Part shown: one piece after another, positions 4,001 to 57,444 of the stretch
How the letters are laid out: every line of letters starts with the position of its first letter
Position numbering within the stretch: the stretch's first letter is position 1
Assembly: GCA_019163375.1 (NCBI GenBank)
Contig: JAFLKK010000008.1
Span: 124,001 to 188,000 of the forward strand
Length of the DNA stretch: 64,000 nucleotides
Reading direction: 5' to 3'
Source: Paludibacter sp.
Lineage (GTDB): Bacteria > Bacteroidota > Bacteroidia > Bacteroidales > Paludibacteraceae
The notes under the pieces: model-generated
Database searches by the model: none
Told to the model about the DNA's origin: nothing
Seen by the model: only the letters and a program-made list of their open reading frames with translations
Made by a program: the position numbers and the translations under genes

Positions 4001-4573
4001 TTATTCGTAAAGCTTATCACTATGATTAAAACAAGACTCGAAATTGCTCAACTTATTATGTAATTTATCTTTCTCTGAAAGAATGATTTTATCCACAGGA
4101 ATCTTCCAATTAATTGCCAGGTCAGTATCATCCCATGCTAATGCTCCTTCGTGTTGTGGAGCGTAATAATTGTCGCATTTATATTGAAAGATCACTTCAT
4201 CGCTTAATACTACAAATCCATGTGCAAAACCTCTGGGAACAAAAAACTGACGTTTATTTTCGGCTGATAGTTCTACTGCTACATGCTTCCCATAGGTTGG
4301 TGAGCCTTTTCGTATATCCACTGCAACATCCAAAACAGCACCTTGTACTACTCTTACCAGTTTGGATTGTGCATAAGGTGGCTTTTGAAAATGTAAGCCT
4401 CTTAAAACACCATAACTGGATTTTGATTCATTGTCTTGTACAAAACCGGTTTTACAAACTTGTTCCTGAAAGTTTTTTTCGGAGAATGATTCAAAAAAAT
4501 AACCCCGATCATCCTTAAAGATACGAGGTTCTATAATGACTACTCCTTCTATCTCTGTTTTAATTATTTCCAT
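4001..4573 (-). CDS. rfbC: dTDP-4-dehydrorhamnose 3,5-epimerase family protein
   Basis: A 190-residue RmlC-type cupin. It starts IKTEIEGVVIIEPRIFKDDRGYFFE, with the family motifs LRGLHFQKPPYAQSKLVRV (catalytic His in GLHF) and VAVDIRKGSPTYGKHV, then FFVPRGFAHGFVVLS. Its ATG shares one base with the rfbA stop codon (TAATG), so the two are translationally coupled. The family normally epimerises dTDP-4-keto-6-deoxyglucose on the way to rhamnose. Neither rfbB nor rfbD is in the window, and the next genes are CDP-sugar genes, so a CDP-linked substrate is possible but less likely than rfbB/rfbD lying elsewhere. Confidence 0.92.
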   Translation of the reverse strand: MEIIKTEIEGVVIIEPRIFKDDRGYFFESFSEKNFQEQVCKTGFVQDNESKSSYGVLRGLHFQKPPYAQSKLVRVVQGAVLDVAVDIRKGSPTYGKHVAVELSAENKRQFFVPRGFAHGFVVLSDEVIFQYKCDNYYAPQHEGALAWDDTDLAINWKIPVDKIILSEKDKLHNKLSNFESCFNHSDKLYE

Positions 4574-5442
4574 TATTTTCCGATATTCAATAAATACTGA
4601 CCATATTGGTTTTTTTCCATTGGTCGGGCTAATTCTATCAGTTGTTCTTTGCTAATCCAGCCCTTTCCGAAGGCAATCTCTTCGAGACAAGCAATTTTTA
4701 GACCCTGGCGTTTCTCTATTACTTCTACAAAAGTGGAAGCATCAGAAAGTGAGTCGTGTGTACCGGTATCCAACCAGGCAAAACCACGGCCTAAGAGCTG
4801 CACTTTAAGGTTACTTTCTTTCAAAAATTCCTGATTAACGGTAGTAATTTCTAACTCTCCACGTTCGGAAGGTTTTATTTGCTTGGCTACTTCCACTACT
4901 TTGTTCGGGTAAAAATACAACCCAACTACCGCATAATTTGACTTCGGATGCAAGGGTTTCTCTTCAAGGTTTAAAACATTGCCATTTTCATCAAATTCGG
5001 CTACACCATATCGTTCCGGGTCGTTTACAAAATAACCAAAAACAGTTGCTTTATCTTGTTCTGCATTGGCTACTGCCTCTTTCAGCATCTTGCCAAAACT
5101 CTGTCCGTAAAAAATATTATCACCTAATACCAAACAAACCGAGTCATTTCCGATAAATTCTTCCCCAATAATAAAAGCTTGCGCCAATCCATCGGGTGAA
5201 GGTTGCTCGGCATATTCCAATTTAACACCATAATCAGACCCATCACCTAACAACCGGCGGAAACAGGGAAGATCTTGAGGAGTTGAAATAATTAATATTT
5301 CACGAATCCCGGATAACATTAATACAGATAAGGGATAATAAATCATCGGCTTATCATACACCGGTAAAATTTGCTTGCTCACCCCTTTTGTAATCGGGTA
5401 TAAACGGATTCCGGATCCTCCGGCTAATACGATTCCTTTCAT
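4573..5442 (-). CDS. rfbA: Glucose-1-phosphate thymidylyltransferase
   Basis: Makes dTDP-glucose from dTTP and glucose-1-phosphate. The 289-residue protein has the signature [18 protein letters not shown] at residues 7-24, [15 protein letters not shown], and [10 protein letters not shown] with the metal-binding Asp, all characteristic of RmlA. The ATG directly follows the TAA stop of the repeat-encoded frame upstream (TAAATG at 5440-5445), with no recognisable ribosome-binding site, and it overlaps rfbC by one base. It is the first ordinary gene of the operon running to base 1. I see no TAnnTTTG promoter immediately before it; transcription may come through the 21-bp array or from within it. 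Confidence 0.95.
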
Positions 5443-5739
5443 TTAAGTATTTTCGGTTACAATTAATGTCATATTCATCCTCTTCGAACGTTCTGCTATG
5501 CCTTTCGAAGTCTCTGCTAGGTCTTTCGAAGTCTCTGCTAGGTCTTTCGAACGTTCTGCTAGGCCTTTCGAATGCTCTGCTATATCTTTCGAATCTTCTG
5601 CTAGGGCTTTCGAATGCTCTGCTAGGGCTTTCGAATGCTCTGCTAGGGCTTTCGAACGCTCTGCTAGGGCTTTCGAACTCTCTGCTATGCCTTTCGAATG
5701 CTCTGCTATGCCTTTCGAACGTTCTGCTAGGGCTTTCAA
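5443..5739 (-). other. Possible repeat-encoded 98-residue ORF (uncertain coding)
   Basis: The frame reads through all of array 1 as about a dozen heptads of the form SKALAER or SKGIAEH, then ends SKRMNMTLIVTENT. Such a sequence would be a very polar, highly helical rod. In favour of translation: the stop abuts the rfbA start, and the variable positions give only small residues (A, G, D) or polar residues (R, H, S, T, D). Against: there is no ATG, the neighbouring frames are open too, and silent positions do not vary. I list it as a possible ORF only. Confidence 0.3.
5482..5733. repeat. 21-bp tandem repeat array, 12 units (array 1)
   Basis: Twelve consecutive units of exactly 21 bases with the plan TTTCGAA-nnn-TCTGCTA-nnn-C; two conserved 7-mers alternate with variable triplets. 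A thirteenth, broken unit starts at 5734. No insertion or deletion breaks the phase, so several frames on both strands stay open. On the minus strand one frame reads heptapeptides S-K-x-[LI]-A-E-x, with x in the last place always polar (R, H, S, D, T). That frame has only a TTG start (5739) and ends with TAA touching the rfbA ATG. Whether it is translated cannot be decided; codons for S, K and A do not vary even at silent positions. Confidence 0.95.
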
Positions 5740-5747
5740 AGCCTGGT

Positions 5748-5862
5748 TTCACCGTGTAACACAGTGGTTACTCAGTGTAACACGGTGTAATTTTAGTTTC
5801 ACAGAGTAATTTTCACAGTGTAACACGGTGATTACTCAGTGTGACACAGCGTTATTATAGTG
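5748..5862. repeat. GTGTAACAC-type dispersed repeat (copy 1)
   Basis: Short blocks such as CAGTGTAACACGGTG and its variants recur four or five times (TTTCACCGTGTAACACAGTG, CTCAGTGTAACACGGTG, CACAGTGTAACACGGTG, CTCAGTGTGACACAGCG). A closely similar stretch is at 7751-7822, in the same order of blocks (ACTCAGTGTGACAC after GTGATT). The blocks are partly self-complementary (CACxGTG). It lies between array 1 and the 245-residue gene. Confidence 0.8.
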
Positions 5863-5903: not shown

Positions 5904-6641
5904 TTACTTCTCTGTAGGTAGAGTTGTATTGTCGTCCGCTGATGACTTTCTACCCGTCTGTTTTACATTTTTGAGAATTCGTGTAAAAGTATAATCTGCT
6001 AATTTTGCAGGATTAGAACTTTTATACAAAATTTTGCCTATCGAAGATATCTCGGCCGCTTGCCGGTATGCTTCGTTCAGCAACAACACATTATCCTGAA
6101 CAATAGCTCTGCGATGGCTGGTTATTTCGATTTGCTGTTGCTTATCGGCTGCCATCGTACTAAAAGCGGCAGTCAAAAAAGCAATTTGCTCGTCGGTTAA
6201 ACCTTTCTCGGCCAATGGAGTCTTATAGGTACGAATATTTTCTATGACTACATGCAGATTGTCAATAACTCCTTCTACATTGTGGAAACGGATGCTTTGA
6301 CGCAAAGCCGTCAATCCAAAGGCAGTAGGTGTAATGTTCAAATTTTTCTTCGCCAGGTTAAGATAACCCGTTACACGATTTATCGGTTGAATAAGTCCGG
6401 TCATCGTATTCGTGTACCTTTCGGTAATGATCGATTTTGCCAGGGTCTCGGATTGAGGTTCCAGCAAATCACAAACAGTTGTAACTCTTGTTTCAAAGTC
6501 GGTAGCATACGCTTCGATAAACGTGGGCGAAAAAGCAGAAAAATCTGCCAGGTCGCGTCTGAAAGCAAATGCAACAGCTTTTAAAACAACAGGTAACTCT
6601 TCATCCTTACAGTTGAAGAGTCGTTGATTCACACTTTTCAT
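5904..6641 (-). CDS. Conserved-looking protein of unknown function (245 aa)
   Basis: I do not recognise this protein. I start it at the ATG at 6641 (MKSVNQRLFNCKDEELPVV); the longer frame in the track uses 40 extra, low-quality residues. It has no signal peptide and no membrane segment, and looks largely alpha-helical with regularly spaced leucines and valines. There is a polar, probably disordered C-terminus (KQTGRKSSADDNTTLPTEK). The codon pattern looks coding and both flanks are repeat-rich. It lies on the same strand as the sugar operon but is separated from rfbA by the repeats and array 1. A CAAAAGTA (minus-strand TACTTTTG) box at 6894-6901 could be its promoter, leaving a leader of about 250 bases. 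Confidence 0.7.
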   Translation of the reverse strand: MKSVNQRLFNCKDEELPVVLKAVAFAFRRDLADFSAFSPTFIEAYATDFETRVTTVCDLLEPQSETLAKSIITERYTNTMTGLIQPINRVTGYLNLAKKNLNITPTAFGLTALRQSIRFHNVEGVIDNLHVVIENIRTYKTPLAEKGLTDEQIAFLTAAFSTMAADKQQQIEITSHRRAIVQDNVLLLNEAYRQAAEISSIGKILYKSSNPAKLADYTFTRILKNVKQTGRKSSADDNTTLPTEK

Positions 6642-7319
6642 TTTAGTTGATTTTAAATAATTAGGTATGAATATAAAGAGTTGAGATAGAAAGACCGCAT
6701 TCCTTTGGCTGTATTTACACAGCTTAACCCCATTTGTGTTCAACTGAACATCAATTATCATTTTCAGTTAGCGGCCTTCTCAACACTACTGATTGTATTA
6801 TATCTATTTGTAATTCTTACTTTAAATTTGCAACTAAACGGGTGTGATTCGTTCTTGCAGAACAACCCACGCGAGGGCTATCCTATCGGGCTACAAAAGT
6901 AACACATTATTTTCACAATAGTGATAGAAATTAAAATAAAAATACCCCGAAATTCCCAATTCATTAACACTCAATAATTTGAAAATCAAAAAAAGACTAC
7001 ATAAATAGTTGATAACGATAGATGATTCCGTTTAGTATGCCAGGAATTAAAACGAGGAAATAAACAAGTGAATACGACAACAAAAGCTTAAAATACTGTT
7101 AACCACATCCATTACCCTCGTCGCTTTAGCCCATAAAATCAGAAGAATTGGCGAACAAGCTGTAATAATTGCCACGCAAAAAAACAGTTGCACTACATGC
7201 AATACTGCCTCCAATTGTATTAAAAAACGAATTCATAAAGTGCCGGCGTTAACAAAAAAGTACTACATAAAAGTTTTTTTCAAAGACAATTGGTAGAAGG
7301 GTGAAAAGGTGGAATTATG

Positions 7320-7750: not shown

Positions 7751-7822
7751 AGCTCAGTGTAACACGGTGTTATTTTAGTTTCACAGTGTTACACAGTGAT
7801 TACTCAGTGTGACACGGTGTTC
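7751..7822. repeat. GTGTAACAC-type dispersed repeat (copy 2)
   Basis: Second copy of the repeat at 5748-5862: CTCAGTGTAACACGGTG, then TATTTTAGTTTCACAGTG, then TTACACAGTGATTACTCAG and TGTGACACGGTG. Order and spacing of blocks match the first copy closely. Confidence 0.8.
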
Positions 7823-7960: not shown

Positions 7961-8022
7961 GAGACCCTGCACACAAGCAAGATCCCTTTAATTATGAATT
8001 GTGAATTATAAATTATGAATTA

Positions 8023-8065
8023 CTTGTACTGAGCGTAGTCGAACTTGTACTGAGCGTAGTCGAAG
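8023..8065. repeat. Tandem pair of 21-bp CTTGTACTGAGCGTAGTCGAA elements
   Basis: Two copies of CTTGTACTGAGCGTAGTCGA(A) exactly 21 bases apart, ending 6 bases from the stop codon of the chain-length gene. Similar pairs are at 9195-9247 (opposite orientation) and 12152-12195. Confidence 0.85.
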
Positions 8066-12151: not shown

Positions 12152-12195
12152 CCTGTACTGAGCGAAGTCGAACTTGTACTGAGCGTAGTCGAAGT
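12152..12195. repeat. Tandem pair of 21-bp TGTACTGAGCGnAGTCGAA elements
   Basis: First copy CCTGTACTGAGCGAAGTCGA(A), second CTTGTACTGAGCGTAGTCGA(AG), exactly 21 bases apart, as in the pair at 8023-8065. Confidence 0.85.
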
Positions 12196-57080: not shown

Positions 57081-57395
57081 TCTGACCTTTTTACGAAACA
57101 TCAACTCTGTTTTACCAAGCGTTCTGACAATTTTACCAAGGTCTCCAACAACTTTACCACGGCTTCTGACAATTTTACCAAGCTCCATATAATAAAAATA
57201 TCAGGCTCTGACGATTTTACCTTCGGTTCTGACAGTTTTACCACGGCTTCTGACGATTTTACCGAGCATTCTGACAAGTTTACCGAGGTATCTGACAGTT
57301 TTACCACGGCTTCTGACAAGTTTACCAAGCTCTAAAACCATTTTACCGAGCATTCTGACAAGTTTACCGAGGTATCTGATAATGTTACGAAGCAT
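57081..57395. repeat. 21-bp tandem repeat array, 15 units (array 2)
   Basis: Fifteen steps of exactly 21 bases, consensus TCTGACAATTTTACCACGGCT; the TTTACC core recurs at 57090, 57111, 57132, 57153, 57174, 57216 and every 21 bases to 57363, then GTTACG at 57384. The unit expected at 57195 is overwritten by AT-rich sequence (CATATAATAAAAATATCA) yet the phase is kept. On the plus strand a frame reads heptads S-D-x-F-T-x-x (for example SDNFTKV), comparable in plan to S-K-x-[LI]-A-E-x in array 1; on the minus strand a frame with an ATG (57458) reads LGKLVRM-type heptads with one stop at the overwritten unit. Confidence 0.95.
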
Positions 57396-57444
57396 TATGA
57401 CAAAATAGAAATTGCTTTGATAAAAAAGAAAAACGAACTTAAAC

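Follow-up and report, generated by a model that had tools for sequence, protein, structure and literature searches.

A 21-bp tandem array beside rfbA in Paludibacter, probably non-coding, and its relation to other arrays with a two-turn step

Introduction

Plasmid iterons and the repeats of partition sites are direct repeats of about 20-22 bp which are phased by two helical turns, and a protein reads one face of them. The closest known published cases for the array described here are two repeat families of Porphyromonas gingivalis. BrickBuilt elements consist of 23-bp units with a leader, a tail and IS5-type ends, occur in 19 intergenic copies and have promoter activity, and MITE464/PgRS consists of 41-bp tandem repeats with IS5-type outward ends (PMC4596501). 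Moreover, a further paper describes insertion sequences (IS) that target REP sequences, which are dispersed intergenic repeats (PMC1525189).

The array studied here lies in a stretch of 64,000 nucleotides from Paludibacter sp. (the window); the species is represented by one genome, and gene calling was simple. As in BrickBuilt, direct repeats of about two helical turns lie between genes in several copies scattered over one Bacteroidales genome (four loci with 21-bp units, against a BrickBuilt-type range of 20-23 bp), the unit has conserved and variable columns, and there is a link to IS ends. However, BrickBuilt has a shared leader and tail and IS5-type ends that enclose the repeats, whereas the step here is 21 bp and neither a shared leader or tail nor enclosing terminal inverted repeats were found at the four loci. 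Their sole common part is a 24-bp IS256-type tip, which was present at two loci, and in degenerate form at one more, with its outer tip directed at the array; it is absent at the window copy. A 41-bp period like that of MITE464/PgRS was also found in some arrays here, but the sequences are unrelated and IS5-type outward ends are a feature of MITE464/PgRS. For the landing behaviour of the IS, the nearest case is that of the REP-targeting elements, in which an insertion sequence likewise prefers a dispersed intergenic repeat; REPs are palindromes of related sequence, whereas the targets here share only the 21-bp step and the element is of the IS256 family. Similarly, iterons and partition-site repeats resemble these arrays in unit length (about 20-22 bp) and two-turn phasing, but they belong to replication or partition loci next to Rep or Par genes, while the arrays here are chromosomal, numerous and diverse in sequence. 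A literature search of partial coverage returned no paper that deals with 21-bp arrays of Paludibacter or with such arrays as targets of IS256 elements.

Results and Discussion

Structure and surroundings of the array

The array occupies positions 5483-5737 (plus strand), as determined by TRF and unit alignment, and has sister arrays elsewhere in the genome. TRF reported a period of 21, 12.1 copies, 86% matches and 0% indels, and the alignment placed 12 full units in a single phase at 5483-5734, followed by a degenerate 13th, TTCAAAGCCTG. The 12 exact, indel-free units noted in the initial annotation were thus upheld. The unit reads TTCGAA-NNN-TCTGCTA-NNN-CT, in which TTCGAA, TCTGCTA and the closing CT were invariant in 12/12 units, and only columns 7-9 and 17-19 varied. 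Of the two 7-mers that had been described as fixed, TCTGCTA is indeed invariant, but TTTCGAA has to be shortened to TTCGAA, the first unit reading CTTCGAA.

The neighbouring rfbA gene (4573-5442, minus strand), encoding glucose-1-phosphate thymidylyltransferase (Pfam NTP_transferase, 7.1e-76), lies outside the element, and other sugar-nucleotide genes occupy the remainder of its strand. On the opposite side the array is flanked by a gene to which no family was assigned (5904-6761, minus strand). Degenerate repeats of the GTGTAACAC(A/G)GTG type, with a period of about 21, adjoin the array at 5754-5849; repeats of the GTGTAACACAGTG type, seen at these positions, appear again at 7778-7821. In addition, two-copy 21-bp repeats of TACTGAGCG(A/T)AGTCGAA were observed at 8022-8064 and 12154-12193, and six of the seven matches to this repeat in the genome fall inside the window.

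Coding potential of the array

A minus-strand frame of SKxLAEx heptads whose TAA touches the rfbA ATG (TAAATG) is present, as the initial annotation had claimed. It spans 5443-5739 on the minus strand (98 aa, stop codon at 5443-5445) and starts with TTG at 5739, without an ATG. Under one proposal it encodes a coiled-coil rod, a small protein whose translation is coupled to that of rfbA by the TAAATG overlap. Besides the open frame and this overlap in the window copy, the variable positions coincide with the x residues of the heptad, which would be exposed, and L/I occupies the core. The codon score of the frame, 0.28 per codon, also resembles that of genes (mean 0.18). The codon score is the best argument for translation, yet it is weaker than the evidence from broken frames: in the three sister arrays the same frame is interrupted by 5, 4 and 1 stops, respectively. 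All Pfam and NCBIfam matches were under the cut-off, and the variation has no 3-bp periodicity. Since the two variable triplets are bound to fall on every codon position, no frame shows a synonymous bias. Across the array of the window, stops are likewise absent from one further frame on the minus strand and from two on the plus strand. Orthologues of rfbA also occur without the array (see below). The heptad protein was rejected on account of the stops in the sister copies and the lack of codon periodicity, the ORF was judged to be no gene, and a translated helical rod coupled to rfbA is considered very improbable. The array by rfbA is probably non-coding, and on this view a small protein called beside rfbA would drop out as a likely false prediction.

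Distribution of the unit family

The pattern TTTCGAA-N3-TCTGCTA-N3-CTTTCGAA was found at four loci of the window genome (G000), namely the window and C1, C7 and C10, where the sister arrays have 22, about 8-9 and about 9-10 units, respectively. All four are intergenic, and each is flanked by different, unrelated genes. The unit had no exact match among 199 other genomes of the family, nor when a single genome of each species was scanned, nor among viral contigs; the latter two collections may lack records very near the window genome. Within the genus, the rfbA orthologues of highest identity (84% and 78%) have no array upstream, and a coupling of the array to rfbA was rejected for this reason.

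A second 21-bp array (TTTACC..TCTGACA; 57110-57403, plus strand) is unrelated in sequence to the one by rfbA and belongs to the same class. It is interrupted once and has a sister copy in the same genome at C5 (324 kb). The strand of both families is consistent relative to the neighbouring genes (4/4 TTTCGA loci and 2/2 TTTACC loci), which would be in line with an array that forms part of the rfb leader transcript and functions there as a structured or protein-binding RNA, and a promoter-like match was seen upstream on the minus strand. However, this match is at chance level, and the minus strand, which would be the one in the rfb transcript, shows only a weak folding advantage over shuffled sequences (z -1.85), while it is the opposite strand that folds better (z -3.80). 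A hairpin RNA was rejected on the weakness of folding in the strand that would be transcribed, and an Rfam search of the window gave no match above the gathering score. With the array absent in relatives as well, an RNA-level leader is regarded as unlikely.

Helical phasing and the common step

The per-column diversity of the array was most strongly periodic at 10.5 bp (power 0.258, p=0.0004), with no signal at the codon period of 3 bp (p=0.72), in a column-permutation test that ignores the clustering of variable columns. When 53 units were pooled, the 10.5-bp period was weaker (p=0.03) and the 3-bp period again gave no signal (p=0.85). Similarly, 10.5 bp was the commonest dominant period of variability across 53 arrays (15/53). 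The array thus combines, in the manner of iterons, a two-turn repeat step (21 bp) with variation on one helix face (10.5 bp), and the recurrence of variable columns every 10.5 bp is consistent with their lying on the far side of a DNA repeat of two turns. Between the two readings that had been offered initially, a DNA or RNA element is supported over the rod, but there is no support for information in the variable triplets, since these columns recur every 10.5 bp.

Arrays of unrelated unit sequence were found to share a step of 21, 42, 63 or 84 bp, mostly free of indels. Among arrays with a period of at least 16 in 464 kb of the window genome and 400 kb of a Paludibacter relative, 18/29 had periods that are multiples of 21; the corresponding count in other genera of the family was 1/4, and a 50-kb stretch of E. 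coli contained no array. Over all gathered loci, a set enriched for arrays at IS tips, the period was a multiple of 21 in 72 of the 101 strong arrays, 54 of them with zero indels. Some arrays have a period of 41 bp, which is close to four helical turns and is tolerated by no reading frame. Array density was taken from the 464-kb and 400-kb stretches; strong arrays numbered about 8 per 400 kb, and by extrapolation the whole genome would hold several dozen. Some unit families also looked alike in more than one Paludibacter species when compared by eye (L014 of the window genome with L081 and L099 of G001; L015 with L031), e.g., TTGTTGCC..TCCAAAAA and GGATGTTTTAGAGGGTA, and such families may therefore predate the species.

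Based on these results, the array by rfbA is best explained, with somewhat better than even confidence, as a non-coding, helix-phased and dispersed minisatellite that is not specific to rfbA and belongs to a class serving as IS landing site. The conserved blocks on one helix face may be read by a DNA-binding protein or nucleoid factor, or may contribute to phased DNA bending, and such a reading of the helix face would keep the exact two-turn step, which selection or a copying mechanism would maintain. The unit number would change in whole 21-bp steps through slippage or unequal exchange, and the phased tract could be a preferred landing site of the IS transposase. Lying in the gap before the rfb operon, the array could also modulate rfbA transcription.

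The main rival is a neutral process, in which slippage or repair in these bacteria would duplicate DNA in tandem, by its nature in steps near 21 bp (and 10-11 bp), and the phase is not read by anything. Such a process could account for a step that is common to arrays of unrelated sequence. Two-copy intergenic duplications, which are young, already favour 21 bp, and at several array borders an IS tip is partly duplicated in steps of 10-22 bp. However, it would not readily explain why the fixed columns persist through units that differ elsewhere, why the variation is helix-phased, or why indels are absent from most arrays although their units have diverged. The neutral minisatellite is accordingly a possible but doubtful explanation.

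Insertion sequences at the arrays

The 24-mer TGACACAGTTTATTGAATAGACCC precedes the sister arrays at C1 and C7. Very different arrays of the same genome, at C6 (two loci) and C8, are preceded by it as well. In a relative, TGACACAGTTTATTGAATAGACCC serves as terminal repeat to a 1315-bp element, which encodes a transposase of 403 aa and is flanked by a target duplication of 8 bp. From its structure and transposase size, we take this element to be a member of the IS256 family. Many of the genomes that share this IS end are named Paludibacter, in line with the genus of the window, and tips were found over many Bacteroidota. In the window genome, a Transposase_mut search returned only one short broken piece, and the IS tips there look like relics. 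No recognisable IS tip was found at the array by rfbA.

A 21-multiple array lay directly outside the tip in 42/99 tips from many Bacteroidota, a non-random sample in that most IS-linked loci were selected for carrying a tip. On the inner side of the tip an array was present in 1/101, and tips lacking a transposase had arrays in 33/43. The background in random stretches of two Paludibacter genomes was far lower, at 36 and 58 array-like per 20,000 (0.2-0.3%); among the named loci, whose selection was itself based on the tip, it was 353/20,000.

Thirteen tip pairs shared a matched 8-bp target duplication. When the empty sites of these pairs were rebuilt, three had an in-phase array through the insertion point, eight an array on one side and two none. 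The continuation in the three sites was 18/21, 20/21 and 15/21, the last with 36/42 at lag 42. The units thus continue in phase across these three empty sites, and therefore the array came first there and the IS landed in it. A making of the arrays by the IS was rejected for at least three cases, as the empty site already held an in-phase array, and the direction of the IS tips, which face the array, led to the rejection of a MITE that encloses the array within its ends.

A wider reading is that Bacteroidota chromosomes carry arrays defined by geometry, i.e., unrelated two-turn units of which a nucleoid or regulatory protein reads one face and on which an IS256-family transposase lands; at this breadth the proposal is tentative and is held with low confidence. 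If true, minisatellites that look anonymous would obey one physical rule, namely a step of 21 bp irrespective of sequence, and a family of transposons would use this rule to find a harmless place of insertion. This would be a sequence-independent mode of targeting that is directly testable in Pedobacter or Paludibacter.

Two further features of the insertions were observed. The last 10-22 bases of the IS256-type tip were tandemly duplicated at the array border in six loci (L038, L009, L043, L059, L127 and L143). In Pedobacter nototheniae, the same IS end faced the long side of the array in five insertions (L119/L194, L126/L172, L187/L122, L141/L132 and L129/L179), as if the insertion had a preferred orientation, with a sixth pair, L101/L193, as the exception.
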